Shown here: one piece after another, positions 43,577 to 58,133 of the stretch
How positions within the stretch are numbered: the stretch's first letter is position 1
Layout: every line of letters begins with the position of its first letter
Notes under the pieces: generated by a model
Database searches by the model: none
The model's input: the letters and a program-made list of their open reading frames with translations, nothing else
Told to the model about the DNA's origin: nothing
From: Flavobacterium pisciphilum
Lineage (GTDB): Bacteria > Bacteroidota > Bacteroidia > Flavobacteriales > Flavobacteriaceae
Length of the DNA stretch: 64,000 nt
Assembly: GCF_020905345.1 (NCBI RefSeq)
Contig: NZ_JAJJMO010000001.1
Coordinates: 124,001-188,000 of the forward strand
Direction: 5' to 3'
Made by a program: the position numbers and the translations under genes

Positions 43577-44140
43577 ATGAATAGTAATAACATTTTTGAC
43601 GAAATATCTAAACTACCACTGAGCTCTAGAAAAGCTTTGGAAGAAAATATTACTTTGGTTCGCTTTCCAAAGGGACACATTTTATTAAAAGCAGGAAAAA
43701 TTGAGTCAAATATCTATTTCATAAAAAAAGGAATTGTTAGAGCTTATGTAAATCAAAATGATAGTGATGTTACTTTTTGGTTTGGAAAAGAAGGGGAAAC
43801 TATTCTTTCTATGCGAAGTTATGTTGAGAACCAAAAAGGTTATGAAGATATCGAGCTTTTAGAAGATTGTGATCTGTATGAATTAAAGACGGCTAATCTG
43901 CAACGATTGTTTGAAGAAGACATTCATATTGCAAATTGGGGAAGGAAATTTGCAGAAAGAGAACTTATAAAAACAGAAGAGCGATTAATTTCGAGACAAT
44001 TTAAAGCTGCTTCAGAAAGATATAATGAGCTAATAACCAATAACCCCGATTTGATTAAAAGAGTACAACTAGGACATATTGCCTCTTATTTAGGGATTAC
44101 ACAAGTAAGTTTAAGCCGAATACGAGCGGAGATAAAATAA
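43577..44140 (+). CDS. Crp/Fnr family transcriptional regulator
   Basis: A 187-residue regulator with an N-terminal cyclic-nucleotide-binding-like barrel (about 10-125; VRFPKGHILLKAGKIESNIYF and KKGIVRAYV) and a C-terminal helix-turn-helix ending HIASYLGITQVSLSRIRAEI. The cNMP-binding residues are not clearly conserved, as in many Bacteroidota members. It lies just upstream of an SMR exporter gene (73-base gap), a recurrent arrangement in Flavobacteria, so it may regulate that exporter. Confidence 0.9.
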   Translation: MNSNNIFDEISKLPLSSRKALEENITLVRFPKGHILLKAGKIESNIYFIKKGIVRAYVNQNDSDVTFWFGKEGETILSMRSYVENQKGYEDIELLEDCDLYELKTANLQRLFEEDIHIANWGRKFAERELIKTEERLISRQFKAASERYNELITNNPDLIKRVQLGHIASYLGITQVSLSRIRAEIK

Positions 44141-44213
44141 ATTTATTTTTTATCATATGTAAAAAAATTATTGAATTTGCTAAAGGATCTTTGCCATATT
44201 AAAATTTAAAAAT

Positions 44214-44540
44214 ATGAATTGGATTCTTTTGGTTATTGCAGGTTTATTTGAGGTCGCTTTTGCTTCGTGTTTAGGAAAAGCGAAGGAAGCAACAGGAAAT
44301 GATGTTTATTTATGGTACGGAGGTTTTCTGGCTTCACTAGTTATAAGCATGTTGCTTCTTATTAAGAGCACTCAAACATTACCTATTGGAACTGCTTATG
44401 CTGTATGGACAGGAATTGGAGCCGTAGGAACAGTTTTAGTTGGTATTTTTGTGTTTAAAGACCCTACGAACTTTTGGAGATTGTTCTTTATTGCAACCTT
44501 GGTAGGCTCTATCATAGGCTTAAAATCAGTGTCACATTAA
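44214..44540 (+). CDS. sugE: SMR family exporter, SugE/Gdx-like
   Basis: A 108-residue, four-helix membrane protein of the small multidrug resistance family. Glu13 in MNWILLVIAGLFEVAFASCL is the essential proton/substrate carboxylate. GTAYAVWTGIGAVGTVLVGI is typical of the SugE/Gdx branch, whose members export guanidinium or quaternary ammonium compounds. Members work as antiparallel dimers. Expression is possibly controlled by the upstream Crp/Fnr protein. The short spacer leaves little room for a guanidine riboswitch and I see none. Confidence 0.9.
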   Translation: MNWILLVIAGLFEVAFASCLGKAKEATGNDVYLWYGGFLASLVISMLLLIKSTQTLPIGTAYAVWTGIGAVGTVLVGIFVFKDPTNFWRLFFIATLVGSIIGLKSVSH

Positions 44541-44558
44541 TGACGCTAACAAATAAAA

Positions 44559-44595
44559 AAATGCAACTTAATTTAAGAACAATTAAGTTGCATTT
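44559..44595. terminator. SMR gene hairpin terminator
   Basis: A perfect 15-bp stem, AAATGCAACTTAATT and its complement with a 7-base loop, lies 18 bases after the stop. A and T runs on both sides make it potentially bidirectional. The rest of the 359-base gap to 44900 holds no credible gene. Confidence 0.8.
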
Positions 44596-44800
44596 ACAAT
44601 ATAAAGCCCTCTTCCTACTTCCATTTTTCCTATTTCTAAAAACATTTGTTGTTTTTACTCTCTTTATGTTAATTTTCATTTTTTGTCAGTGTATTCGATA
44701 CTGCATCCGCATTCCTAAATCTTTTGGCAACTAAACTCCTCTCCTATCTTTAAGATAATTATTTCTTAATTCACCTTGATTCTTCATCATATTTGTAATA

Positions 44801-44819
44801 AAAATAGTCATATATTAGC
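44801..44819 (+). promoter_or_regulatory. 19-bp promoter-like repeat, second copy
   Basis: AAAATAGTCATATATTAGC is identical to 42624-42642. It lies 80 bases upstream of the 44900 gene, in the same position class as the first copy. It is a candidate shared promoter or regulator site. Confidence 0.45.
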
Positions 44820-44899
44820 CTACGAAAAAGCTTGTTTATGGTAGTAACTCAATGAAAATTTGACTTACGAATACCTTTTCATAGCTGATATAAACTATT

Positions 44900-45625
44900 A
44901 TGAAAGGCATAACTACATTTTTATTACTATTAATTGTGAGTTCTTTTTATGGACAAAATTCTGAAAAGAATATATATCCTAAGGAAATTCGAAAAGTTGA
45001 TTTGAGTACAAAAACCGATAATGAAATAAAACGTCAAACTGTGCTTTTAGAAAAAAGCAAGTTGACAACTGCTGAACAAAAAGAACTGGATGCCTTATTA
45101 GAAAAATATGGTGAAGTTGTCGAAAGTATGTGGGATGTTATAGATGGTGGTTGTAGTTGGTATTGTGCTGGTGGGAATTATAAAGTAAGAGCATCTTCAT
45201 ACTTAAACTCCGACAAAAGCACCAATTACGAAGCTAAAAATGCTAACGATCTAAGTTATCAAACAGCTTGGGTTGAAGGAAAGACTGACGAAGGAATTGG
45301 TGAATATTTAGAATATTATTTTTTAAATAAAAGCCCCAGAATTACACAAATTATAATTTCGAATGGATATGTCAAATCAGAAAGTGTATGGAAGAATAAT
45401 AACAGAGTTAAAAAGCTGCGATTAAGCACTAACGGAAAGGTATTTGGTATTCTAAATTTAGAAGATACCAAAAATGATCAAATATTCGAAGTTGGTACTC
45501 TTGGGCATAACAAAAATGGAACTGATTTAATTTTAAAAATTGAAATTATTGAAGTTTACAAAGGAGATAAATTTAACGATACTGCTATAACTGAAATCTA
45601 CTTTAATGGAATTGATGTACACTAA
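44900..45625 (+). CDS. Secreted protein with NADase-type glycan-binding (discoidin-like) domain
   Basis: A 241-residue protein with a signal peptide (about 1-19, ending FYGQ). After a helical spacer, residues about 95-240 carry the discoidin-like beta-sandwich pattern: ASSYLNSDKSTNYEAKNAND, TAWVEGKTDEGIGEYLEYYF, IIISNGYVKSESVWKNNNRV. This pattern defines the NADase-type glycan-binding domain that often occurs in secreted or surface proteins. Here no enzymatic domain accompanies it. It is followed after 10 bases by another secreted protein, so the two are co-transcribed. Confidence 0.8.
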   Translation: MKGITTFLLLLIVSSFYGQNSEKNIYPKEIRKVDLSTKTDNEIKRQTVLLEKSKLTTAEQKELDALLEKYGEVVESMWDVIDGGCSWYCAGGNYKVRASSYLNSDKSTNYEAKNANDLSYQTAWVEGKTDEGIGEYLEYYFLNKSPRITQIIISNGYVKSESVWKNNNRVKKLRLSTNGKVFGILNLEDTKNDQIFEVGTLGHNKNGTDLILKIEIIEVYKGDKFNDTAITEIYFNGIDVH

Positions 45626-45635
45626 GAAACTACAA

Positions 45636-46586
45636 ATGAGAAAATTATTTATTATGTTATTACTTGTTCTTTTTAATCATAATGCAAAATCACAAGTGCA
45701 AAGTGATGTGGTAGGATTTTATAGTTTAAGAGGTGGAAGTCATTACCTAAAACCAGATGGAACTTTTATAATATTAGGCTACGGAACTTTAATAACTGGT
45801 AAATGGTCATTGAAGGAACATGGAGAAGTAAGTTTTGTCCCGGATTCTCCTAAAGAGTCATTTCAAGTTTATGGAAGGTATACCCCAGAACTAAAAGAAA
45901 ACTCAAAATTCATGCTTTCAAATGGATTAAACAAGGAAGAAACATTTATGCACATCGGAAAACTTAATCTTAGTACTTCTAAATTGCAAAGAGTTTACGT
46001 AAAAGGGCACAGATGCATTCAATTTCCAGAAGTGTATACTACGAATAAAAAGGCTGATACAATTTCATTTAGTTCATTGCCTTATGAAGCATCGGGAGAC
46101 AAAGATTATAAACCTACAATTTACAATTTTTATAATACTGAAAAATTTAATGATTTCATTGTGTATTATTTTGCGGATGATCAAAACAAACATCCCTTTT
46201 CTTACTATTACAAAGATGGTGGATTATATTACAATAGTCATTTTGGAGAAAAGCAAAATTTAGAAGATGAATTAAATAAATCTGAATTTGCTCAGATTTC
46301 AAGGGTCGATTTTGCTCCAAACATTATATTGTCCAGCCCTAAGTATAAAATGTATGAATCTGACACTGAAAGTGAATTTTTTAAATTGAACTATTCGTTG
46401 GACGAAAAAAGAAATGCTTACATAAATAAATTAAACTATGTAGCTGGAGAAGAAAATAAAGAAGATTATGATTATAACAATACTAATTTGCTAAATATTT
46501 ATAAAAAGATAAGCACATTTGATACCATGAAAAGTAGCTTTTTAATTGAAGAAAAGTCAATTTTTAAAGACCATTGTAAAGAATAA
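45636..46586 (+). CDS. Secreted protein of unknown function
   Basis: A 316-residue protein starting at ATG 45636, with a signal peptide MRKLFIMLLLVLFNHNAKSQ. The body is beta-rich: VGFYSLRGGSHYLKPDGTFI and GTLITGKWSLKEHGEVSF recall lipocalin-like envelope proteins of Bacteroidota. No catalytic motif is recognised. It lies 10 bases after the glycan-binding-domain gene and probably works with it outside the cytoplasm. Confidence 0.75.
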   Translation: MRKLFIMLLLVLFNHNAKSQVQSDVVGFYSLRGGSHYLKPDGTFIILGYGTLITGKWSLKEHGEVSFVPDSPKESFQVYGRYTPELKENSKFMLSNGLNKEETFMHIGKLNLSTSKLQRVYVKGHRCIQFPEVYTTNKKADTISFSSLPYEASGDKDYKPTIYNFYNTEKFNDFIVYYFADDQNKHPFSYYYKDGGLYYNSHFGEKQNLEDELNKSEFAQISRVDFAPNIILSSPKYKMYESDTESEFFKLNYSLDEKRNAYINKLNYVAGEENKEDYDYNNTNLLNIYKKISTFDTMKSSFLIEEKSIFKDHCKE

Positions 46587-46615
46587 TTTTTTATAATGCC
46601 GGAGGCAACCTAAAT

Positions 46616-47179
46616 CTAATAATACAATCTAAAATCGAGGTGCTTACAAAGATCGTAGTGTTTTTGGTGTAATTCCTCCACAATTTCAATTATATCATCT
46701 TCATCTTGGCATAGGCTAAAAAAAGCTTTATCAAGCGTACTACTACTTGTTATTTTTTTAAGTGGAGCTCCATAACCTGAAATGGCACGTGCCCCAGTGA
46801 TATCAAGAAAGTATTGTGCTTCCTCCTCGCTTAAATCTAATATTTTTGCATTGGCAAAATGTAAAATTTTGCCTTTCATTTTGCCTTCAAAAATTTCGGC
46901 GATTTCTTCTAAGCTATAGTAATAATCATTAAGACAAACACTATTTCCTTCGCCTGGCATTACCAAATATATTATTTCATAATCTTTAAAGTTGTGGTCA
47001 TCGTAAAGTAATGCGTTTAAGCTGTCCTCTAAGCCCTCGATTGTGTCACAAGTTTTATGAATACTCGAAATACCTTGATCAAAAGCTAATTCTTCTAAGT
47101 TTTTAATAACTTCTGTAGTCTTGTCTATTTCTACATCGGCAACAGCTTCGAGGCAGAAAATAAATTTATCATAATCCAT
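46616..47179 (-). CDS. DUF6642-like protein (CHAT/caspase-like fold, active site apparently lost)
   Basis: A 187-residue acidic cytoplasmic protein. The order FIFCLEAVADVEI ... YEIIYLVMPGEGNSVCL ... YSLEEIAEIFEGKMKGKILHF resembles DUF6642 proteins, which show a caspase/CHAT-like pattern with HG and a later Cys. Here PGEG replaces the His-Gly position and HFANA replaces the Cys motif, so catalysis is unlikely. The match is from pattern memory. A TACCTTTG promoter lies 36 bases upstream. Confidence 0.6.
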   Translation of the reverse strand: MDYDKFIFCLEAVADVEIDKTTEVIKNLEELAFDQGISSIHKTCDTIEGLEDSLNALLYDDHNFKDYEIIYLVMPGEGNSVCLNDYYYSLEEIAEIFEGKMKGKILHFANAKILDLSEEEAQYFLDITGARAISGYGAPLKKITSSSTLDKAFFSLCQDEDDIIEIVEELHQKHYDLCKHLDFRLYY

Positions 47180-47214
47180 AAAATTATGTTTTTTGTAGGT
47201 AATAAATAATACTA

Positions 47215-47222
47215 CAAAGGTA
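47215..47222 (-). promoter_or_regulatory. -7 element of the DUF6642-like gene
   Basis: The minus strand reads TACCTTTG, an exact match 36 bases before the start codon. Confidence 0.5.
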
Positions 47223-47382
47223 TATTTTATTGCCGAAAATCGAGAAGAGTTTTAAGGAATTAATTCTGTTTTCTAGTTACTCATTATGTATATTTTACTT
47301 ATGAATGTTGACTAATTTTATGCATTACAGCTAAGTTTTCATTACTTTTATCTCTTAAATATTTTATACCCCCGATAAATTT

Positions 47383-47742
47383 ATGAAGAGAATTACTTTA
47401 AACCCAAATTATATTAAATCATCTAATTTATTGTTTATCTCAGCGGGTCTTGGTTTAATTAATTTTTTAATTTTACCTGAAATTCTTTCCTCAAAATCAT
47501 CTATAGTAGTTGGTTCAATTGCTGTTTTTTTTATTTCAGCAATGGGATTGGCAATTAGATTTGAAATTTCTTGGATTAAATACCTATCATTAATTTTAAT
47601 CGTTTTTGGAATTAATATAGTGCCACCACTTATAAAAGATGAGTTGATTTCTCATCCTATAAACGGCATTATTACTATAGCACAATCTATAATTCAAATT
47701 TATGCTACAATTTTATTATTTAGCAAAAAAAAGAGAAACTAA
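47383..47742 (+). CDS. Small multi-pass membrane protein of unknown function
   Basis: A 119-residue hydrophobic protein with about four membrane segments (about 14-32, 41-58, 65-82 and 95-113) and a basic C-terminus (FSKKKRN). No family motif is recognised. Its stop codon lies in the loop of the terminator shared with the convergent operon at 47789. Confidence 0.65.
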   Translation: MKRITLNPNYIKSSNLLFISAGLGLINFLILPEILSSKSSIVVGSIAVFFISAMGLAIRFEISWIKYLSLILIVFGINIVPPLIKDELISHPINGIITIAQSIIQIYATILLFSKKKRN

Positions 47743-47758
47743 TTGTTTCTCTTTTTTT
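47725..47758. terminator. Bidirectional terminator between convergent genes
   Basis: A-run plus GAGAAAC pairs perfectly with GTTTCTC plus T-run. T-tracts exist on both strands, so it ends both the small membrane protein gene and the four-gene tyrosinase operon coming from the right. Confidence 0.88.
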
Positions 47759-47788
47759 AAATTTCTTTGCTAGAGCATATAAAATATT

Positions 47789-48868
47789 TTATTCCAAACT
47801 CATCGCTTTTTCTGTCTTTAATAGTTCTATTTCTTGGTTCAATTGGATTGCAGTCAAATCTAGTTCTGATAATTCTTCTATTCCTAATTCTCTATGATTT
47901 GGTTTAACAACCTCATTATATAATTTGTATAGTCCTATTAAAACATCTAGTTTGCTAATTATAAGGGGGCTTCCGTCAAAATATTTAGCATCCGTTCCAT
48001 CTCCATCTGGTGAACAGTGATTTACATTTAAAGAATGTCGCCAATATTCTGCATGATTTTTCCATTCTACTTGATCGACAACTGACGGGTTGCTAAACCA
48101 GATATTCCAACTGAGTACATTGCTTTTCTTCAACATATTACCACTTAATATATTAAAAATACCAAGAACAATAGTATTAAATTTATCTACAATTGGTTCA
48201 CCTGTTAAAAGAGCATCATTAATTTGAACATCTAAATTAGCAAGAGCATAGGCTTTTTCTTCATGTTTTGCGAAATCAGGACTTTGAAATCTATCGCTTT
48301 CACCACGTAATAAGGGAAAGTATGGATCTTCAGCATCATCTACTCGCGAGGTTTGTACTTGTATAGCAGTAGCTTTTGTAAGTGGGAACTTAGTTTTGTC
48401 TAATGTTTTTAATAGAGCTTTAATAAAAGGATGCGAGTTGTTATCTGGTGAAAACCATATTTTTCCAACGACACCTAAATCGGCAGCCATTTCTTTGGTG
48501 GTTTCATTTACCCAGCCTCTTTGTCCCGTAACGGTTACTTCTACGTTTATATTTATTCCGACACTTTTTAGATAAGCCCCTTGCTGTGGGCAAATAATTG
48601 AAAATACACGACCCTCGTCTGTATAACCAATTCTTGAAATATTATTTGCAAACATTTGAAAACACCTCGATTTTTGGACTTCTAATTTGGTCAACCAACT
48701 AAACTCAGGCCATTCTGCCTTCATTTGACGTTGTAGTTTGTCAATATTTGCCATATTATCTAGTATCGGTAAGGAACTAAGATCTGGTTTTGGATACTTA
48801 AATTCGGGATTAGACTCTTCAAATCCACCAATCCATTCATTTTTCTGAAATTCTGATTTTTGACTCAT
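47789..48868 (-). CDS. Unrecognised protein, last gene of the tyrosinase operon
   Basis: A 359-residue cytoplasmic protein without signal peptide or membrane segments. I do not recognise a family. Visible features are a Pro/Trp-rich N-terminus (WIGGFEESNPEFKYPKPD), EWPEFSWLTKLEVQKSRCFQ, a beta-rich centre (VEVTVTGQRGWVNETTKE) and EWKNHAEYWRHSLNVNHCSP with His/Cys residues that could bind metal. It starts MSQKSEF, as the tyrosinase starts MSQKSNF. It is 6 bases after the FAD oxidase gene. A decayed fragment of a second copy is at 60097-60157. A role as structural partner or tailoring enzyme is guesswork. Confidence 0.8.
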   Translation of the reverse strand: MSQKSEFQKNEWIGGFEESNPEFKYPKPDLSSLPILDNMANIDKLQRQMKAEWPEFSWLTKLEVQKSRCFQMFANNISRIGYTDEGRVFSIICPQQGAYLKSVGININVEVTVTGQRGWVNETTKEMAADLGVVGKIWFSPDNNSHPFIKALLKTLDKTKFPLTKATAIQVQTSRVDDAEDPYFPLLRGESDRFQSPDFAKHEEKAYALANLDVQINDALLTGEPIVDKFNTIVLGIFNILSGNMLKKSNVLSWNIWFSNPSVVDQVEWKNHAEYWRHSLNVNHCSPDGDGTDAKYFDGSPLIISKLDVLIGLYKLYNEVVKPNHRELGIEELSELDLTAIQLNQEIELLKTEKAMSLE

Positions 48869-48874
48869 TTTCTT

Positions 48875-50446
48875 TTAAATTAAATTGTTTATAAATCCTG
48901 ATTTTAAACTCATCTCATGTAAAAAGAGATTTTTACTATCATATTTTTGTTTGATTTTTAATAAATCCATCAAATAACGTCTCTCATAAAATTTAATTAA
49001 TAGTTCAATGCGTTGATTATCATTCGCAGGGTCATATTTTGCAGATTTTTCAGATTTTCTTATACAATTGTAATCAGGAAAATTGACAAAGCATCCTTCA
49101 GTAAATCCCTTAAGACTCAAGTCCAATCTTAAGCCTTCTACCCAAGTTAAGTATTTATCATCATCTGTATCATAAGGATTTGACCACCAAGCTTGAATTT
49201 GGAACATAAAATCTCGATCCTTATAATAAAAAAAGTTATCTCCATCCTTAATCTTGCCTCCCATTCCATGAAGGCTTAAATAACAATTTAGTTTTTTTCC
49301 GAATCCGTGATCCTTGTTCATATATTGGAAGATGGCAGCTGTTAAAGCTGCGTAATCTATCCCCTTTTTAGGAAAAAAGGAACTTATTTTATGCGGATGG
49401 GGAAGATCACAGGTTGATGTTGGAGCATCTGAATTTCCTCTTTCTTGTGTTTTAATACTATCACTTATAAATACATCGCTACTAATACTATTTTCAATAG
49501 ATGAAAAATTTTCAATATTTAATATGTCATTTTGAATACTTTTGGTACTTAGTGCACTTTGTTGAAATTTTATATATTCCGTTGGGAAGTCTTTGTCAAT
49601 AATTGTAGCTATTTGTTTCTTGATTGCTTGGTCATTATCTTTTTTTCCTGCTATCATAATACCAGAAATATATAAACGCATAGTATTTTCACTAGGATAT
49701 ACTCTTGCAAAAGAGGTTATCACATTGGTTGCCTGTGAAGCATTTTTAAACCATTTATTTAGTATGGCTTGGGATGTTGCTTCATTAGTGATTTGAATAT
49801 GAAATGATACTTTTTTCAAGCCTACTAATGATTGTGTTTTAAAAGTAAAACTAGTAACGACTCCGAAATTTCCTCCTCCTGAGCCTTTTAATGCTTTAAA
49901 TAAGTCCTTGTGTTCATTTTCTGCGTTTACATCAACTATTTTAAACCCCGTTTTCCCATCTGTTATTACAATTTTAGCGCTTACTAATGAATCACATGTC
50001 ATACCGTATAATCTAGAGTAAGGCCCCCAGCCTCCTCCTTGTGCCAAACCTCCAATTGCTACAGAATCGCAACCACCACCAGGAATTACTAATTCGTACT
50101 TATTAAGTTCATCATATACATCTTTTAGTTTAGTTCCAGATGGGATTACTACCGTTTTTGTTGTTTTATTAATAATCATCTTATTCATTTTCGAAGTATC
50201 AATGACTACTACATTATCTGCTGTGCAAGCTCCTTCATGATGATGTCCACCAGAGCGAATTCTAAATAGTTTATTATTTTCTTGACAATACTCCAATACG
50301 CATTTGACATCTTCTGCAGATTCACAATATGCAATTTCATCGGGACTTAACTTATTATCATTTAGTAATAAGAGATTCGAAATTTCTCTAGCATCTTCAT
50401 AACCTTCTGAACCTTTGAGAATTACTGTAACAGAACAATTTTTCAT
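48875..50446 (-). CDS. BBE-type FAD-linked oxidase with bicovalent flavin
   Basis: A 523-residue oxidase of the vanillyl-alcohol-oxidase/berberine-bridge superfamily. In the FAD domain, His68 in RSGGHHHEG and Cys126 in PGGGCDSVAIGG sit where members attach FAD at two points. GGLAQGGGWGPYSRLYGMTC and GSGGGNFGVVTSF complete the fold, and the BBE C-terminal motif occurs near residue 470 (NFPDYN). No signal peptide is visible, whereas many relatives are secreted. Such enzymes oxidise phenolics, sugars or alkaloid-like substrates with oxygen. Downstream of a tyrosinase it may process a phenol- or quinone-type product; that is inference. Confidence 0.87.
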   Translation of the reverse strand: MKNCSVTVILKGSEGYEDAREISNLLLLNDNKLSPDEIAYCESAEDVKCVLEYCQENNKLFRIRSGGHHHEGACTADNVVVIDTSKMNKMIINKTTKTVVIPSGTKLKDVYDELNKYELVIPGGGCDSVAIGGLAQGGGWGPYSRLYGMTCDSLVSAKIVITDGKTGFKIVDVNAENEHKDLFKALKGSGGGNFGVVTSFTFKTQSLVGLKKVSFHIQITNEATSQAILNKWFKNASQATNVITSFARVYPSENTMRLYISGIMIAGKKDNDQAIKKQIATIIDKDFPTEYIKFQQSALSTKSIQNDILNIENFSSIENSISSDVFISDSIKTQERGNSDAPTSTCDLPHPHKISSFFPKKGIDYAALTAAIFQYMNKDHGFGKKLNCYLSLHGMGGKIKDGDNFFYYKDRDFMFQIQAWWSNPYDTDDDKYLTWVEGLRLDLSLKGFTEGCFVNFPDYNCIRKSEKSAKYDPANDNQRIELLIKFYERRYLMDLLKIKQKYDSKNLFLHEMSLKSGFINNLI

Positions 50447-50502
50447 AGTATTAATTTAAATTGATTGAATTAGATAGAAATCAGAGTTCGCCTAGTCATT
50501 AA

Positions 50503-52101
50503 CTAGGCATATTTTAATGTTATCCATTTTTCATTTATAAAGTGAAAAAATTTATGATATAGTTTAAAACTTAAACTGTTTAATAAGGCGGAAATGAGTG
50601 TTAAAAACAATCCTACTGCCACAAATAGTACACTCAGGTTTAGCCAAAAATTCACACCCAGCATAACAGTTCCGAAAAGCGCTAAATAGAAAGGAAGTAG
50701 ACCGTTTCTTTTTTTAGATAATCTATAAAGATTAATTAAATTAATAATAGCTAAACCTATGAATACATAAATGAGCCAAGGTTGATGCTTGATAGAAACA
50801 ATACCACTGATTCCAATTAAATTGAGATATGCCATCCAACACATCGGACACTTAGGAAAAAAGGCAATTAAAATGGGCAGTATTACTGTTGAAATTCGGT
50901 TTATTACAGATACCTTTTTCTCTTTTTGAATAGGTTTTTTATCTGTGATTAACTCATTTAAAGCTCCAATTATTAATTTTTCCTCTGCTTGAAACCTAAG
51001 GAATGATTTTTCTATTTTGCCTTCAGGATTGATAATGTACACCTCGATTCTGTGAACATTAACATCGTTTCCTTTATAATTTACTCCTATGTTTAAACTT
51101 TCAATCAAAGACTCCATGCCAGATGTAACTCTGAACATTCTATTATTTTTATCGAAATGATAGTTTCGATTATTCCCATATGATTTTAATATAGAACTCG
51201 TATCGTATAATGGATCATAGGTTATTGCGGCTGTCTGAACAGTACTATACTGATTGTTTCCAATGATTTTCTTTTGAATATTAACCAAGTTGTATATGGT
51301 TTGAATGCACTTACGCGGGTTATGACATTTGGTATAAAAAAAAGACAAGACTGTATATTTTCCTTTGAAATAATCATTCCACCCTAATTCATTACCATCT
51401 TGATCTTGCAATACAATGCTCCCTAATTCAATTTCTGATTTTGAAGAAAAGAAAGTATCTGCTTGATTATATACTTCAATTGGTATAGTGCAGCAATCAT
51501 CTAATGAAGGAGTAGCCTTTTCTATAACTTTTATGCACTCTGTTAATAGTGTGTTGTTCTCAGAACTGAGATACTCACTTAGTTGTGTTTCTAAATGATA
51601 TAAATCTGGCAAAATATACTGTGCTTTCCCGTTTAGCCATTTTAAACTTTCGAAAATTTCTTTTAAGGCAGTTGTATTGTAGTTCTGATTGTAAGGCCCT
51701 AGAAAAGAGGAATAGTTGACAATTGCATCTGCTTGCCAAATGTTGTAAATACTTTTGTTCAAAAAAGCTGCTACACCCGAATGTGGCTCTTTAATTCCTC
51801 TAACTGCTTTTGCTGAAGCAGCAATTATATAAGGAGAAAATGAGGTTTCTAGCTCTTCTAGGATATATGGTAGTCCTTTTTGAGGCATTCCAATATTGTA
51901 GAATGCCTCAATAAGGTAACCACGCATGTGAGATGATGCTATTGAACTTCTATCTTTATAAATAGGATGTCTTTCTGATAAAAGTTCCACCAATAACAAG
52001 TTATTAAATTTTTGATCTGTCACTTTAATAGAATCAATCAATAGGATAAAGTCTTCCGTTGATGTAGTACTACCGAGTTCTTTTATTTGTTGATTAATCA
52101 T
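50503..52101 (-). CDS. HEAT-like / SCO1-like / MerC-like membrane fusion protein, probable copper supplier
   Basis: A 532-residue protein. Residues about 1-200 are helical repeats (HEAT-like). Residues about 222-375 form an SCO1/SenC-like thioredoxin domain: VLSFFYTKCHNPRKC has Cys259 and Cys265, and His315 in NYHFDKN matches the conserved SCO histidine. Canonical SCO proteins have CxxxC, so the five-residue gap here is odd. Residues about 400-515 have four membrane segments with CPMCW (Cys418, Cys421), as in MerC-type metal transport proteins. Position 12 bases after a tyrosinase gene suggests copper delivery. The topology (N-terminal domains inside or outside) is unclear. Confidence 0.8.
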   Translation of the reverse strand: MINQQIKELGSTTSTEDFILLIDSIKVTDQKFNNLLLVELLSERHPIYKDRSSIASSHMRGYLIEAFYNIGMPQKGLPYILEELETSFSPYIIAASAKAVRGIKEPHSGVAAFLNKSIYNIWQADAIVNYSSFLGPYNQNYNTTALKEIFESLKWLNGKAQYILPDLYHLETQLSEYLSSENNTLLTECIKVIEKATPSLDDCCTIPIEVYNQADTFFSSKSEIELGSIVLQDQDGNELGWNDYFKGKYTVLSFFYTKCHNPRKCIQTIYNLVNIQKKIIGNNQYSTVQTAAITYDPLYDTSSILKSYGNNRNYHFDKNNRMFRVTSGMESLIESLNIGVNYKGNDVNVHRIEVYIINPEGKIEKSFLRFQAEEKLIIGALNELITDKKPIQKEKKVSVINRISTVILPILIAFFPKCPMCWMAYLNLIGISGIVSIKHQPWLIYVFIGLAIINLINLYRLSKKRNGLLPFYLALFGTVMLGVNFWLNLSVLFVAVGLFLTLISALLNSLSFKLYHKFFHFINEKWITLKYA

Positions 52102-52113
52102 TGTGTCAGATTT

Positions 52114-54375
52114 TTATTTGTTCTTTAGCGCATTATTAAAAAGTGTGTGCAAAGCCCATATTTTGTTTACTGTCTTTTCTTCTTTTGTGTTTTTTAATTT
52201 GGCTTCAAGATCTACTAAGAAGTTTGTAGATTCTAATGAGTTCAGGAATATTCTTTTAATTGTTTCGTTTGAAGCAAAGCCCAATAATGTGATTAAAAGA
52301 TCTAAATACTCCTCCTCTCCTATTTTGTTGAATATAATTGCCTTATTCTTAGTTATAAGGTCGTATATTTTATCATCTTGAATAAATTCATAGTCATAAA
52401 GTGCTAATAAATAAATGACTAAATACCTAGAGAACGATTTTGTTTCATACTTATCACTGCCACTATCGTAATACCTAACAGAAACATCAGAAGTTATGTC
52501 ATTTTCTAATTTTTTAAAATTTAATTCTAGTTGGTGGATTATGTCTCGATTGTCAGCATAGACTAATGGAATAAGTATTGCATCTACTTCTTCAATGTGA
52601 TCTGCTACAGTAAGTAATTTTTCTAAAGTATTATTTATAGTAGCGGATAATTTAGGTATCTCTGATGAAAATATTTTATTAAGCGTTAACGTATTTAATA
52701 CAGTACGTAATTCTGGGGCATTATTAGTTGATGCAAATAATTTAGTGGAGTTCTCATTTGTTCTTGAGTTCCTGTTTATTAATTGCTCCATTACTTCTAT
52801 AAGGTCTTCAACATCTTTTTCTTTATGTAAAATTCGTAGCCCTGAGGTTTTTAAAGCTTGAATCAATTTATTATTGTTTTCAATTTTTGGAGAATAAGCA
52901 TTTAAAAAAGCCGCTGCATCATCATATTCAAAGCCTAAATAATTGCTGTAATCTATTACACCAAAAGGATCTAAGGCATCTTTTATGATTGGGCTATTGT
53001 TTTCAAAGTTTTTATAACAATCGGATTTAGTAAAATTATTTGTTCTTGTACCTGGAGCCTCATAATGGTATTCATTAGGAGTTACTTTTCCATTCCATGG
53101 CCATAACTGTGCATTCACATTTTTCCAACTTGGAATCGAAGGATCCTCTTTTTGATTGGGATAATTCTTTTCAGATGACGGATCAAATAACTTATGCATT
53201 GTCTGCCATTTCCCCCACATACGTTCTACGTTTGAATGTAAAAAAAAGAAAATTGGGTCTTTTGGTGCTGTGGGAACATAGTTTACATAACCATTATTAC
53301 TCACATGTGTATATCCATGTGGATCACCTTCTAATACTGTGAATGATTTATCATCTGTGCTAAGCTTCCCGCTTTTATCCTTTATTTGTTTAAAGAGATA
53401 TTGCTTATTATTATAGGTTTCTGATTCTTTTTGAACAGCATAAAAAGATACTTGTTTTGTTTTTTCATCATATTCATTAAAACCAGCTTGTTCTTTTTGA
53501 TTGTCAAACCATGACATTCTTCGAATTAATTTTTCACGGTCAATTGACCAAAATTTTAAGGGATTATCAGCATTAAATCGTGCGAAATTTGTAGAGACTC
53601 CATTTGTCATAATAGGATTATCTGCTCGGTCAATGATACTTTCTCCCAGAAAATCTGCTTTAAAAATATTAGGAGCTGGTTCATCAAATTTCCAATAATG
53701 CAAAGAAACTTTAGGGTCTACAATTTGCAATTGCCTTTCTAAATCAAGAAGATAAAGCCTATGCCAAGGTAAAAACACTTCTGTTCCGTGAGCAATAGAT
53801 TTTGATCCTTTGACGTGCATTTTAAAAAAGTCTGTTGAATAAATTCCTATTCCTCGGCCTTCTGAATCTGCTTTGTTAACTGTAGATAAGGCATGTAAAT
53901 AAGCAACTTTAGCATTTTTAGATAATAAGTTTGCGTTTTTTCTAACGCGTATCATTGTTTTTATAGCAGTAATTTCTACTCCATCTTTTATGGCTTTTAT
54001 TCTAATGTCTAAATCTTCTGGACTAGCTCCATTGAACAATTTTTCAGCTTGAAATTTTCCGCCAATAAAAATGTCTTTATGACTTTCTCCTATTTTAAAT
54101 TGTATTTCAAATGATTCTTTACCTTTTGTTCCAATAACGTTATTATCATAAAATAATAGTGTTGGAACTCCTAATTTTGATAAATCAATATCTTTTGGAA
54201 ATTCAAGAACTGTGTCCTTAAGTTGTTCTTGATCAAGGGTTATTTTTTCTGAATTGGAGCTGTCTGAACGCGAAATTCTAAATTTTGTAGGTGTCCATGT
54301 GATGTATGCAGCTTCTGGACTTGCATTGTCATTTATACCAATAAACGACAATGCAAAATTTGATTTTTGTGACAT
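52114..54375 (-). CDS. Tyrosinase-family type-3 copper oxidase with long helical C-terminal extension
   Basis: A 753-residue protein. After a beta-rich N-terminal domain (about 1-145), the tyrosinase core (about 150-400) shows all six copper ligands: His187, His196 and His205 for CuA (AHGTEVFLPWHRLYLLDLE) and His353, His357 and His380 for CuB (DPHGYTH ... FFFLHSNVERMWGKW). Such enzymes hydroxylate phenols and oxidise diphenols to quinones. The last 320 residues are helical with repeat character and no known domain; typical bacterial tyrosinases are less than half this size. There is no signal peptide or Tat motif. It is the first gene of a four-gene operon. Confidence 0.92.
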   Translation of the reverse strand: MSQKSNFALSFIGINDNASPEAAYITWTPTKFRISRSDSSNSEKITLDQEQLKDTVLEFPKDIDLSKLGVPTLLFYDNNVIGTKGKESFEIQFKIGESHKDIFIGGKFQAEKLFNGASPEDLDIRIKAIKDGVEITAIKTMIRVRKNANLLSKNAKVAYLHALSTVNKADSEGRGIGIYSTDFFKMHVKGSKSIAHGTEVFLPWHRLYLLDLERQLQIVDPKVSLHYWKFDEPAPNIFKADFLGESIIDRADNPIMTNGVSTNFARFNADNPLKFWSIDREKLIRRMSWFDNQKEQAGFNEYDEKTKQVSFYAVQKESETYNNKQYLFKQIKDKSGKLSTDDKSFTVLEGDPHGYTHVSNNGYVNYVPTAPKDPIFFFLHSNVERMWGKWQTMHKLFDPSSEKNYPNQKEDPSIPSWKNVNAQLWPWNGKVTPNEYHYEAPGTRTNNFTKSDCYKNFENNSPIIKDALDPFGVIDYSNYLGFEYDDAAAFLNAYSPKIENNNKLIQALKTSGLRILHKEKDVEDLIEVMEQLINRNSRTNENSTKLFASTNNAPELRTVLNTLTLNKIFSSEIPKLSATINNTLEKLLTVADHIEEVDAILIPLVYADNRDIIHQLELNFKKLENDITSDVSVRYYDSGSDKYETKSFSRYLVIYLLALYDYEFIQDDKIYDLITKNKAIIFNKIGEEEYLDLLITLLGFASNETIKRIFLNSLESTNFLVDLEAKLKNTKEEKTVNKIWALHTLFNNALKNK

Positions 54376-54574
54376 TTTAAAATATTTGATTTAGATTTTA
54401 CTTTTATAATAATTCGATTTATATATCTCGACCTATCATTTGTAGTAAAAGTATTCTAAATTTATATAGTGGTTCTCCGTATTTATACCTGATTTTATTA
54501 ATAAAGCATCGAAAAATAGCAACTAAATCAATTCTAGTTACTAAAATTATTTACTTCGATAAATAGTAAATAAT

Positions 54575-54601
54575 AAAGCCACTTCATCATGAAGTGGCTT
54601 T
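54575..54601 (-). terminator. Dicarboxylate symporter gene terminator
   Basis: AAAGCCACTTC / GAAGTGGCTTT with a 5-base loop lies 71 bases after the symporter stop, between it and the tyrosinase operon. The remaining spacer before tyrosinase (54376-54574) is AT-rich; I found no exact TAnnTTTG promoter there. Confidence 0.8.
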
Positions 54602-54671
54602 GCTGTTTTTCTTTGTGGCACAGATTATAAATCTGCGCTATCTGAATTATATTTAATTGATTGTAAGGGAA

Positions 54672-55910
54672 TTAATTTGTAATAGAAAGATCTACTTCTG
54701 GATTAGGGATAAAATCTTTTTCAAATTTTGAGATAATTACTGCACCCGCAGCATTACCTATGAAATTGGTAATCGTTCTGGCTTCATTCATGAATTTATC
54801 CACACTAAATAAAAGAGCCAATGCTTCTACAGGAAATTTATGTAATGTAGTAAAAGTAATTGTTAAAGCTATAAAACCAGAACCTGGCACTCCTGATGCT
54901 ACTTTTGAAGTTATCATAATTACCAATATAATAGTTATAATATCCTCTAGAGACAGTGGTATATCAAAAAGCTGAGCAACAAATAATGTACAGACTGGTA
55001 AAAATATAGCTGCTCCAGCCAGATTAAAAGAATAGCCAAGTGGTATACATAACCCTACAACAGCTTTGCTACAACCAGCCTTTTCAAGCTTAGCAACAAT
55101 AAGCGGAAAAGCTGTTCGAGATGATGAAGTACCGAAAACAATCAGTAATTCTTCTTTAATATAGATTAGAAACTTCCAAAGGCTAATTTTATAATACCTA
55201 AATATAAGCCCCAAAACTGCAAATATGAAAAAGGCCATAGTGATATAAGTTGTTGCTAATAGTTTGCCTAATGGCAGCAGGCTATCAATGCCAAACTTAG
55301 AAACCGCATAAGCCATACCGCCAAAAGCTGCAATTGGAATGAGGTAAAATAGATACATAAGTACTTTATATAAAAAATAAGATACTTTTTGTAGCTTAAT
55401 GACCAATTGTTCTCTATGTCGTGAAAAACTTAGTGCAATCCCAAATAATATAGCTAGTAATAGTAGTATTAAAGGCCTGTTAAGTATCAAAAAATTAAAC
55501 CAGTCGTCATTAAATTCTGCATTATTAATCTTTGAAGGAATACCAATGGCAGGAATATGGCTTTTTGCTATTTTACCTGGTTCAATAAAGAGTGCGCTTG
55601 CTACACCCAATAAAATAGCCGCTGTTGTAATTACAATAAAATAAGCTATTGCCTTAAAACTTATGCTGCGAACTTTTTTTAAGTTACCTACTCCACTTAC
55701 TCCTATTACAATAGTTAAAAAAATTACTGGTTGAATAAATGGTTCAATCAAATAGAGAAAACTTGTTCCTAAAAAATCTAATTTAATCCCTTTTTCAGGA
55801 AAATAATGCCCTACAACAACCCCTAGCAATAATGCTACAAATACATATGAGGCCAAATTTTTTACGAATTTGCCTGATACAGATGTATTTATAGGTTGTT
55901 GGTTTTGCAT
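54672..55910 (-). CDS. Dicarboxylate/amino acid:cation symporter (DAACS family)
   Basis: A 412-residue inner-membrane transporter with about eight helices and two re-entrant loops. It contains VFGTSSSRTAFPLIVAKLEKAG, the serine-rich HP1 motif, and GVPGSGFIALTIT with FSVDKFMNEARTITNFIGNAAG, the conserved C-terminal substrate and sodium-binding region of GltP/DctA. It probably imports C4-dicarboxylates or glutamate/aspartate. It lies 39 bases downstream of a citrate-type transporter on the same strand. Confidence 0.93.
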   Translation of the reverse strand: MQNQQPINTSVSGKFVKNLASYVFVALLLGVVVGHYFPEKGIKLDFLGTSFLYLIEPFIQPVIFLTIVIGVSGVGNLKKVRSISFKAIAYFIVITTAAILLGVASALFIEPGKIAKSHIPAIGIPSKINNAEFNDDWFNFLILNRPLILLLLAILFGIALSFSRHREQLVIKLQKVSYFLYKVLMYLFYLIPIAAFGGMAYAVSKFGIDSLLPLGKLLATTYITMAFFIFAVLGLIFRYYKISLWKFLIYIKEELLIVFGTSSSRTAFPLIVAKLEKAGCSKAVVGLCIPLGYSFNLAGAAIFLPVCTLFVAQLFDIPLSLEDIITIILVIMITSKVASGVPGSGFIALTITFTTLHKFPVEALALLFSVDKFMNEARTITNFIGNAAGAVIISKFEKDFIPNPEVDLSITN

Positions 55911-55949
55911 TATGTAATGTTAAATAATGAACAAAGATATAAAGGTTAT

Positions 55950-57242
55950 TTAAAAAGTAATAAGTCCAATAATAATAGCTGTAATTAGCATAGCGAGAGA
56001 TGATCCTAATGCCCATTTTATTGTGAATTTTAGATGGTCTGAAAATTCAACTCCAGCTAAACCTACTAAAAGATAAGTAGATGGTACCAATGGACTTAAC
56101 AAATGAACCCCTTGGCCAATTAACGAAGCTGTTCCTATTTCTAATTTTGTAGCTCCAAGATGAAGACCAGTTTCGGTTATAAGCGGTAATATACCAAAAT
56201 AATACGCATCATTGCTTAAAAAAAACGTCAATGGAGCACTGGTTACTGCTGTTAGAACAGGAAATAATCTTCCCCAAGTATCTGGCACTACAGATATCAT
56301 TGATTTCGCCATAGCATCCATCATCCCTGTTCCTGAAAGGATTCCTGTAAATATACCAGCAGCAAAAATCATTGATGCTACCGAAAGAGCATTGCCTGCA
56401 TGCAATTTAAGAACCTTTTGTTGTTCATCAATTTTTGGATAGTTAATAATAAGACCTATGCAAAAAGCAATCATAAATGAAACAGCAAGTGGAAGAACAT
56501 CAAACATCATTGTTGCTAAAAGCGTTAGTGTTAAGGCTAAATTAAACCATATAAGTCCTGGTCTTTTTAATTGTCGTTGTACTCCTATTGTTTCTTCATT
56601 ATCTAAATATGGATTTATAAAATCTGTTTTTGAAATTCTCTTTTTTTCTTTCATTCCAAGCCATACTGAACATAAAAGTACCCAAACAACTCCGCCAATA
56701 ACTACAGGTATCATAGGCACAAAAAGCTCTGTTGCATCCATTTTAAGTGTAGTCATTGCCCTTGCTGTAGGTCCGCCCCAAGGGAGAATATTCATTACTC
56801 CACCACCAAGCATTATAATGCAAGATAGTACCAATGGATTCATTCCTAACTTCTTATATAATGGTAACATTGCAGCTACTACAATCATATAAGTTGTTGC
56901 TCCATCTCCATCCAACGATACAAGAACAGTTAGCACAGCTGTACCAAACGCAATTTTTACAGGATCACCTTTTGCAAATTTAAGTATCAGGTTCACTAAC
57001 GGATCAAACAATCCAGCATCAATCATTATGCTAAAAAAAAGTATTCCAAAAATAAGCATAATGCCTGTAGGCGCAATATTCTTTACACCATCCATAATGA
57101 TAGGGCCTAAATCTGATGCGAAGCCTCCAAAAAGAGCAAAAATTATTGGTATAAGTATTAGAGCTGTTAACGGAAACAGTCTTTTAGACATGATAAGGTA
57201 CATAAATACGATAATCATTGTAAAGCCTAAGGTAGTAAGCAT
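55950..57242 (-). CDS. CitMHS family citrate/carboxylate transporter
   Basis: A 430-residue membrane protein with about eleven helices. It matches the CitM/CitH layout: an N-terminal TMIIVFMYLIMSKRLFPLTAL, VLTVLVSLDGDGATTYMIVV, WGGPTARAM, then a second half with FFLSNDAYYFGILPLI and the closing GQGVHLLSPLVPSTYLLVGL. Family members move citrate complexed with Mg or Ca in exchange for protons. It is transcribed with the DUF2490 gene (22 bases upstream) and the DAACS symporter (39 bases downstream). Confidence 0.92.
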   Translation of the reverse strand: MLTTLGFTMIIVFMYLIMSKRLFPLTALILIPIIFALFGGFASDLGPIIMDGVKNIAPTGIMLIFGILFFSIMIDAGLFDPLVNLILKFAKGDPVKIAFGTAVLTVLVSLDGDGATTYMIVVAAMLPLYKKLGMNPLVLSCIIMLGGGVMNILPWGGPTARAMTTLKMDATELFVPMIPVVIGGVVWVLLCSVWLGMKEKKRISKTDFINPYLDNEETIGVQRQLKRPGLIWFNLALTLTLLATMMFDVLPLAVSFMIAFCIGLIINYPKIDEQQKVLKLHAGNALSVASMIFAAGIFTGILSGTGMMDAMAKSMISVVPDTWGRLFPVLTAVTSAPLTFFLSNDAYYFGILPLITETGLHLGATKLEIGTASLIGQGVHLLSPLVPSTYLLVGLAGVEFSDHLKFTIKWALGSSLAMLITAIIIGLITF

Positions 57243-57264
57243 GGTAATGTATGTTTTGAAGTTA

Positions 57265-57951
57265 TTAATTTTCTGATTTAGACCAGTCGAAAGAATTTCT
57301 AAAACCTAGTAACACATAATTACTAGTGTCTGATGAGTTTAGTTGGTTGACAAAAGAGAATTCTAAAGCTGATTTTTCTCCCAAATTGATTCCAAGACCT
57401 GCAGTGATCCTGTTACTATCAAACTGTTCTTCTTTTACAACATTCATACGTATCTCATTTTTAAGTATACCGTATAAAGTATTTTTTTCACTTGCTTTGT
57501 TTAAAGGGATTTTAAACGAAATAAGATATCTAAGCCTAACAATGAAATCGTCTGGATTTGTCAAAAACCGTTCTTCTATCCTGTATCGGTGTAGTAAAAC
57601 CGTTCTACCTATCTTATTTTTAAAAGATACTTGCTGGAAAGGTCTGTTTTCATAACGTATCTTTTTTTCCATGTCACTATTATAGGGTTCTAAAACAAGA
57701 AACATGTATCCCATAGCTGGATAGATTTCATTTTCCAGTTTTCTCTCAAGATATGTTGATACTAAAAAAAGCCGCGAATCTTTTACCAAATCATAAGAAC
57801 GATATTGCGATAAAGCAGTAAAACTGTATTTTTGACTTAATTTTGCCGACATAGTATATTGGAACCATGTGTTAAGATTATCTTTCTGAGCATTACTCTT
57901 GACAGAAAATAAGATTAGAAAAAATAGAATTGATATATTTTTTATAGACAT
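57265..57951 (-). CDS. DUF2490 outer-membrane barrel-like protein
   Basis: A 228-residue protein with a signal peptide (about 1-21, ending KSNAQ). It contains NTWFQYTMSAKLSQKYSF near the start and RYRIEERFL plus FRLRYLISFKIPL-like strands, the alternating pattern of DUF2490 proteins. These are predicted outer-membrane beta-barrels common in Bacteroidota. First gene of the transport unit, so it may be a porin-like component for the two carboxylate transporters. Confidence 0.85.
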   Translation of the reverse strand: MSIKNISILFFLILFSVKSNAQKDNLNTWFQYTMSAKLSQKYSFTALSQYRSYDLVKDSRLFLVSTYLERKLENEIYPAMGYMFLVLEPYNSDMEKKIRYENRPFQQVSFKNKIGRTVLLHRYRIEERFLTNPDDFIVRLRYLISFKIPLNKASEKNTLYGILKNEIRMNVVKEEQFDSNRITAGLGINLGEKSALEFSFVNQLNSSDTSNYVLLGFRNSFDWSKSEN

Positions 57952-58133
57952 TTTGATAATTGTTAAATTTTGACCGAGATAAAAGTATGTGAATGGTATC
58001 TGGAAAAAATCTAATTTTCAGTGAACGACATATATAATAAGTGAACTACACAATAAGGCTTGCTAAATAAAATGATATATTCAATTTTAAAGGCTTTTTT
58101 TTAAACGGTAAGTAATTTTTATAATAAAAAAGT

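Follow-up and report, generated by a model that had tools for sequence, protein, structure and literature searches.

Tyrosinases with dedicated copper helpers are known. The available excerpt of PMC2855505 describes PpoB1 and PpoB2 of Marinomonas mediterranea as a two-gene unit, in which a tyrosinase is accompanied by a membrane protein with a part in its copper supply, with PpoB2 being the copper chaperone of that tyrosinase. The grixazone (gri), nsp, ferroverdin (fev) and bagremycin (bag) clusters of Streptomyces likewise combine a type-3 copper oxidase with a copper chaperone and a flavin adenine dinucleotide (FAD)-dependent oxygenase, as presented in the excerpted text of PMC6692506, and the methanethiol oxidase operon mtoX–SCO1/senC–mauG associates a SCO1/SenC protein with a non-cytochrome copper oxidase and features partner fusions (PMC5739008, excerpt). 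Here, we analyze a row of four minus-strand genes in a 64,000-nucleotide stretch of Flavobacterium pisciphilum DNA (assembly GCF_020905345.1, contig NZ_JAJJMO010000001.1, positions 124,001 to 188,000; henceforth the window). The row codes for a type-3 copper oxidase of the tyrosinase family (TYR), a SCO1-type protein (SCO), a FAD oxidase resembling the berberine bridge enzyme (BBE) and a fourth protein (Table 1).

The locus differs from each of these systems in a specific way. The Marinomonas helper belongs to the family PF09948 and those of the Streptomyces clusters are of the GriE type, whereas the partner encoded in the window is of the SCO1 type, with C-terminal helices that differ from those of PpoB2. 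Compared to the mtoX operon, the oxidase is from a different family, and Pfam finds no MauG in the gene row. A preliminary description of this DNA, made from its letters alone, did not recognize the combination as a described system. That view is weakened by the Streptomyces clusters, which unite the same three kinds of component around a different chaperone family (PMC6692506, excerpt). Among the open-licence papers retrieved by our searches, none describes the tyrosinase–SCO pair or the gene row in its title or opening abstract lines, nor did these searches yield a tyrosinase set with a SCO-type helper of this kind.

Two gene pairs, probably joined by insertion

We propose, with a probability of roughly 0.7, that the row consists of two modules joined by insertion, with the TYR–SCO pair having been placed in front of the pair formed by the FAD oxidase and the fourth protein. 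Evidence comes from two congeners, G683 and G668, which code for orthologous FAD oxidases. At the matching site of G683 (locus L141), the window is paralleled at 94% identity over 5378 bp up to position 54575, at the edge of the terminator behind the SDF-family transporter gene; the match resumes from 50462, 16 bases before the start codon of the FAD oxidase gene, at 77%. The G683 site has neither TYR nor SCO and features just 270 bp in place of 50463-54574. Further, the FAD oxidase and the fourth protein form a single open frame of 879 amino acids (aa) in this genome, with 70% and 79% identity to their respective counterparts in the window. As the flavoenzyme pair occurs there in fused form and with no tyrosinase pair in front, it seems to have a use of its own. 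The G668 site (L140) also has the FAD oxidase without the tyrosinase pair, and, by eye, only remnants of both ends of the fourth gene.

Directly upstream of the FAD oxidase, the two congeners share a 186-bp region with 94.6% identity, compared to 69% between the oxidases themselves. This unusual conservation points to a putative control region of the oxidase gene. The region has one strong match in each of the G683 and G668 genomes; in that of the window, where 40 of the 76 candidates were scored, no match reaches E <= 0.001. An Rfam search of positions 8350-8900 of L141 returned a single match, to trpB, whose 26.8 bits fall short of the cut-off (59); we disregarded it as it lies behind the SDF gene, outside the region. 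Because the 186-bp region is common to both congeners and missing in the window, insertion with replacement is the simplest history: most likely, the FAD oxidase and the fourth gene first stood together with their own control region, and the TYR–SCO block arrived later. It would have landed between the SDF terminator and the FAD oxidase gene, replacing the conserved upstream region. The reverse history, namely a tyrosinase pair ancestral at the site and lost from both G683 and G668, appears quite improbable. While it is compatible with the ordinary base composition of the block, and only two congeners with an orthologous FAD oxidase are available for comparison, an upstream region present in both congeners and absent in the window is accounted for in one step by insertion with replacement; moreover, strong TYR members are found in just 3 of the 398 genomes sampled from the genus.

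Several observations nevertheless count against the proposed insertion. First, its direction rests on the two congeners, in both of which a loss could have occurred. Second, the guanine-plus-cytosine content of the TYR and SCO genes is ordinary, both overall and at third codon positions, and thus composition lends no support to a foreign origin. Third, the fusion of the FAD oxidase with the fourth protein is seen in one assembly. Fourth, any new control of the flavoenzyme assumes that neither the 56-bp gap nor the SCO gene contains an internal promoter. The ends of the block share no word longer than 6 bp.

The gene coordinates and spacings given in the preliminary description are borne out by the list of open reading frames (ORFs): the gaps measure 12 bp between TYR and SCO, 56 bp between SCO and the FAD oxidase and 6 bp between the latter and the fourth gene. 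The four genes now probably give one transcript, so that the flavoenzyme pair would most likely be transcribed with the tyrosinase pair. A promoter scan of 47300-54900 gave 34 sites against 40.1 in shuffled sequences, i.e., no excess. Of the bidirectional terminator claimed for the end of the row, the 14-pair hairpin itself was recovered; the scan lists it for the plus strand only, and "bidirectional" rests on its symmetry. If the proposed history holds, the locus is a readable example of how an operon can arise by the insertion of one gene pair before another, with the replacement of a conserved upstream region.

Recurrence of the tyrosinase–SCO pair

We found the TYR–SCO pair repeatedly, in both Bacteroidota and Proteobacteria. 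Scanning named genomes with an alignment of the tyrosinase yielded 20 loci, comprising 8 close relatives and 12 remote ones. SCO lies downstream of TYR in seven of the eight close loci, and the contig of the eighth stops inside TYR. Thus, the earlier suggestion that the tyrosinase comes with its own copper supplier is upheld to the extent that a SCO-type partner is present in every close relative with readable downstream DNA. A plasmid search with the SCO protein recovered eight records, six of them apparently tyrosinase-type (two, H2 and H7, by likeness to those opened). All four opened records of this type have a tyrosinase, a middle gene and SCO, and the two weakest of the eight have SCO genes without a tyrosinase. 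In the genus sample, all three strong tyrosinase matches (the window's own, G696 and G499) are accompanied by SCO. Across 14 loci, the TYR and SCO distances are correlated (r = 0.77, a value reached by 0 of 10000 permutations), with the shared ancestry of the hosts contributing to this correlation.

Three of these loci show peculiarities of their own. The SCO gene of Chryseobacterium indologenes J31 (L004:10913-16326) looks interrupted: other ORFs separate it from its last part, which matches about 3.8 kb away. On a Bradyrhizobium barranii plasmid (L067:4539-6107), the tyrosinase gene looks damaged and the neighbouring HEAT and SCO genes are open. In Chryseobacterium sp. Leaf405 (L003:5965-8945), two other flavoproteins, of the DAO and amine oxidase types, are encoded directly upstream of the tyrosinase–SCO pair.

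The SCO-type partner and its likely role

The SCO protein matches SCO1-SenC (PF02630, E = 1.4e-9) in Pfam, and its predicted model features a helical head, followed by a SCO domain and, at the C-terminus, by a group of long helices. In a Foldseek search with the middle domain, the SCO structure 6n5u ranks second (E 2.5e-6, probability 1.00), behind the putative electron transport protein 3me7 (E 6.1e-7); ResA and peroxiredoxins match as well. The CxxxCP copper motif of SCO1/SenC is absent. In its place, all 34 aligned members of the subfamily display the motif C-x-N-P-x-K-C (C259-x5-C265 in the window); CxxxC is seen in the three best SCO matches from the rest of the genome (a fifth match, L177, without a clear SCO motif, was left out of this count). 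C203, C204, C259, C265 and H350, the last being the distal histidine ligand, are conserved at 14/14 loci, and a C-terminal CxxC (C418/C421 in the window) is found in all seven of these loci that have the C-terminal domain. The preliminary description had ascribed SCO1-like and MerC-like metal motifs to this protein. The first likeness is confirmed by the fold and by PF02630, with the qualification that the motif is Cx5C and not CxxxC. The second is weak: two standalone relatives of the C-terminal domain (L053 and L054) match MerC below the cut-off (E = 0.003 and 0.036), and the C-terminus of the SCO protein itself has no match in Pfam.

To place this partner among tyrosinase helpers, we surveyed 22 regions around other Bacteroidota tyrosinases, outside this subfamily (14 from all 13 other genomes matched in a phylum-wide sample of 395, which overlaps the genus sample, and those from 8 of the 30 further genomes matched in the genus sample). 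Standalone relatives of the SCO C-terminal domain, 154-172 aa in length, are found in 6 of the 22 directly beside unrelated tyrosinases, and PpoB2 proteins in four (L057, L058, L104 and L105). PpoB2 is also encoded near the SCO-type sets of Mesorhizobium and Bradyrhizobium. The window's genome has no match to PF09948, which was detected in both control genomes; nor does it match PF06236, the MelC1/GriE caddie family, though no control genome matched that model either. Our main argument for a copper-loading role is that the SCO protein or its C-terminal domain occupies the place held elsewhere by a studied tyrosinase copper chaperone. The SCO1/SenC gene next to methanethiol oxidase, likewise a copper enzyme, provides another precedent (PMC5739008, excerpt).

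We lean slightly towards regarding such proteins as an undescribed class of tyrosinase metallochaperone, which would be the third after MelC1/GriE and PpoB2. It would be distinguished by a SCO fold, the Cx5C motif and a helical-repeat head, and would serve a cytoplasmic oxidase with a HEAT partner that is separate in Proteobacteria and fused in Bacteroidota. The MerC-like C-terminal domain may be an interchangeable copper-entry part, deployed either fused to SCO or alone. In the mechanism we envisage, SCO would mature TYR as its dedicated partner: Cu(I) would be collected by the C-terminal helices, or by the C203-C204 and C418/C421 pairs, held at the Cys259/Cys265/His350 site and handed to the apo-enzyme, with the helical repeat parts of TYR and SCO possibly docking the two proteins together.

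This proposal is tempered by the absence of a SCO match at all 12 remote tyrosinase loci, and by the 12 of 22 surveyed regions in which neither helper was seen, implying that not every tyrosinase has such a helper next to it. Further, Cx5C departs from the usual CxxxC, which makes copper binding less than certain and would equally suit a thiol reductase. The SCO-type protein would then donate no copper; instead, acting as a thiol-disulfide reductase or a redox sensor, it could maintain the oxidase or its copper site in the reduced state. We consider this alternative rather unlikely. Sco1 has been proposed to be an oxidoreductase in one system (PMC7558416, excerpt), and the matches of the thioredoxin fold to ResA and peroxiredoxins, along with the Cx5C motif and the additional invariant Cys-Cys pair, would suit such an activity; however, the invariant H350 is needed for copper binding and not for disulfide chemistry, and other tyrosinases have the PpoB2 copper chaperone family in the same position. 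The SCO family is known chiefly for chaperoning copper to cytochrome oxidase; a recurring, tyrosinase-tied subfamily with a signature motif would, if true, widen that role, and could be of practical help in the production of active bacterial tyrosinases.

The type-3 copper oxidase and its C-terminal extension

TYR matches Tyrosinase (PF00264, E = 9e-29), with Pfam seeing the core only. This core is common to the tyrosinase structures 4p6r and 3nm8 (E ~1e-19), which we take to be from Bacillus/Priestia megaterium and to have Asn at HisB1+1 (the position following the first CuB histidine); TYR differs in its additional N- and C-terminal regions and in having Gly at that position. Hemocyanin chains gave lower whole-sequence E-values (3e-41 for 6r83) by summing many weak repeats. 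The six copper histidines noted earlier (H187, H196, H205, H353, H357 and H380) are indeed present and are invariant in 24/24 aligned relatives. They are also retained at 13 of the 14 loci of the TYR–SCO comparison, the exception being the damaged L067. Glu349, presumably in the place of the waterkeeper residue of the plant enzymes, is likewise conserved in 24/24 relatives; of the 14 loci, 11 have Glu at this position, while two plasmid genes have Gln and L067 has Thr.

The residues following the CuB histidines bear on the reaction. TYR has G354 at HisB1+1 (Gly in 23 and Ala in 1 of the 24 relatives; Gly in 13 and Asn in 1, L098, of the 14 loci) and V358 at HisB2+1 (Val, Thr, Ile or Met among the relatives). 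Thus, neither position has the Asn or Asp that serves as an indicator, though not as a rule, of monophenolase activity. According to the excerpted text of PMC7693034, hydroxylation is tuned by the residues adjoining HisB1 and HisB2; that of PMC12982950 reports that the o-aminophenol oxidases SmNspF and SgGriF, which share the Gly at HisB1+1 with TYR, show only slow monophenolase activity. Both texts mention exceptions. Because of this shared Gly, we expect that TYR mainly oxidizes o-diphenols or o-aminophenols; the residue speaks against strong phenol hydroxylation without excluding it. The predicted products would be o-quinones or quinone imines. By eye, neither TYR nor SCO starts with a signal peptide, from which we infer that both probably reside on the cytoplasmic side.

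The middle gene of the proteobacterial loci offers a clue regarding the C-terminal region of TYR. Between TYR and SCO of Mesorhizobium, Bradyrhizobium, Phaeobacter and Sphingorhabdus stands a distinct gene coding for 279-291 aa. The three products scanned match HEAT_2, with E ranging from 8e-7 to 5e-5 and one match attaining the cut-off. Related sequence is found inside the tyrosinase C-termini of L098 (residues 551-854) and L099 (residues 503-659), and a profile of 24 tyrosinase C-termini matches one of eight middle proteins with a probability of 99.6. A profile of the 12 C-termini closest to the TYR of the window shows no match to the middle proteins (probability 0.3). Thus, the C-terminal part of TYR is probably a HEAT-repeat partner fused to the oxidase, a relationship seen through intermediates only.

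The FAD oxidase and the fourth protein

The FAD oxidase matches FAD_binding_4 (PF01565, E = 1.6e-28), and its C-terminal BBE domain (PF08031) scores below the cut-off (14.7 bits against 20.6, E = 0.033). The preliminary description had credited it with both FAD-attachment residues, and this was corroborated: H68 (SGGH) and C126 (PGGGC) fall on the SGGH and G-x-C motifs of 9p1o in the alignment, which we take to be the flavin-attachment positions, and both residues are found in 3/3 orthologues. By these motifs, it is a BBE-like oxidase, predicted to be of the bicovalent type. Because the orthologues differ most at third codon positions, continued purifying selection is suggested. The fourth protein has no sequence relative in Pfam, NCBIfam or the PDB, and a plasmid search with it gave no match; its model displays a beta-rich core followed by C-terminal helices. 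We suppose that the oxidase and the fourth protein work together, and our guess for the latter is a role in binding or in a follow-on step. Their fusion in G683 is a lead on a family without a match in the searched libraries.

Co-occurrence of the families and the case for one pathway

Among the 398 genus genomes, strong matches were found in 3 for the tyrosinase, in 3 for the FAD oxidase (the window's own, G668 and G683) and in 13 for the fourth protein (the window's own and G683 included); the three occur together in one, the window's own. The search covered these three proteins and scored few candidates per genome, namely 2 with the tyrosinase, at most 3 with the FAD oxidase and at most 5 with the fourth protein. 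In the phylum sample, the fourth protein was recovered in 5/395 genomes and a strong tyrosinase in 1/395. The preliminary description had named rare co-occurrence of the four families as an outcome that would speak against it, and this is largely what the genus sample gives, with further sets being possible. Specifically, TYR, SCO and the fourth protein each have a relative, at 83-87% identity, for which the longest contig given is 44774 bases; for a more distant trio this length is 14875 bases, a match that could be due to chance. These values, being the longest contig per protein cluster among the best 120 matches, are indirect evidence and cover the three proteins. The 44774-base case suggests that the three stay together in another lineage and that the combination is perhaps not unique. 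Because they seem to be together there, some use of the combination is favoured.

These patterns bear on the possibility that all four genes constitute one pathway, as had been proposed initially, in which the tyrosinase makes a quinone that the FAD oxidase and the fourth protein turn into a pigment or small natural product. We consider such a joint pathway unlikely. The tight same-strand spacing and the shared 44774-base contig are consistent with it, but strong matches to the tyrosinase, FAD oxidase and fourth protein coincide in a single genus genome, and the 14875-base coincidence adds little if due to chance. The SCO-type partner of the tyrosinase is the part of the proposal that stands; set against the remainder are the flavoenzyme pair of G683 without the tyrosinase pair, the G668 oxidase likewise without it and with mere remnants of the fourth gene, and the Gly at HisB1+1. 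The union of an o-aminophenol oxidase, a copper chaperone and a FAD oxygenase in the Streptomyces gri, nsp, fev and bag clusters (PMC6692506, excerpt) provides a precedent. The FAD oxidase indeed shows similarity to the BagG/FevA2 model (E 3.9e-19), though at 68.6 bits it falls far below the cut-off of 850, and it scores 65 bits against BagK/FevA1 (cut-off 800). PF01959, which we take to be the 3,4-AHBA synthase family and which is another hallmark of those clusters, has no match in the window's genome, while 3 control genomes were matched. We retain the joining of two modules by insertion as the preferred explanation.

Features of the locus and further observations

Table 1. Features of the gene row, its flanks and the compared loci. 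Coordinates without a locus prefix are those of the window.
Feature	Coordinates	Strand	Remarks
Type-3 copper oxidase (tyrosinase family, TYR)	52114-54375	-	753 aa; core (residues 182-392) flanked by N- and C-terminal regions
SCO1-type protein (SCO)	50503-52101	-	532 aa; SCO thioredoxin fold between a helical head and long C-terminal helices that contain PKCPMC
Probable membrane domain at the SCO C-terminus	50509-50907	-	residues ~399-531
BBE-like FAD oxidase	48875-50446	-	523 aa; both flavin-attachment positions, H68 and C126
Fourth protein	47789-48868	-	359 aa; without Pfam, NCBIfam or PDB sequence relative
TYR+SCO block	50463-54574	-	absent at matching site of congener G683 (L141), 270 bp there
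Terminator-like hairpin, end of gene row	47726-47758		14 pairs; overlaps end of converging plus-strand gene
Terminator-like hairpin behind SDF transporter gene	54574-54602		L141 homology stops at its far edge
Hairpin at SCO stop codon	50490-50508		7 pairs; listed for plus strand only
Flanking SDF-family transporter gene	54672-55910	-	synteny anchor
Flanking DUF6642 gene	46616-47179	-	synteny anchor
Conserved 186-bp upstream region	L141:8609-8795, L140:10307-10491
Standalone relatives of SCO C-terminal domain	L053:6882-7355, L054:5472-5936, L102:3327-3824, L103:7118-7636, L106:4035-4514, L107:4451-4936
Family of ~130-140 aa	L098:9874-10275, L005:8364-8780, L006:7891-8316, L008:1515-1940, L054:5016-5441, L102, L103, L059, L060, L100, L101

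No tRNA gene was found in 44000-58000 of the window. A family of about 130-140 aa is encoded near tyrosinase genes of Bacteroidota and Alphaproteobacteria, with tblastn recovering it at 11 distinct loci and not in the window; none of three members scanned (0/3) matched Pfam. At one of these loci (L059:3290-5491), a LodA-type (lysine epsilon-oxidase) gene adjoins a gene for a 755-aa tyrosinase and a member of this family, and genes of similar size are found in the same order in L060, L100 and L101. Finally, another congener (L145:7219-12793) codes for a BBE-type FAD oxidase, a Cu-oxidase_3 protein and an unrelated tyrosinase inside 6 kb.

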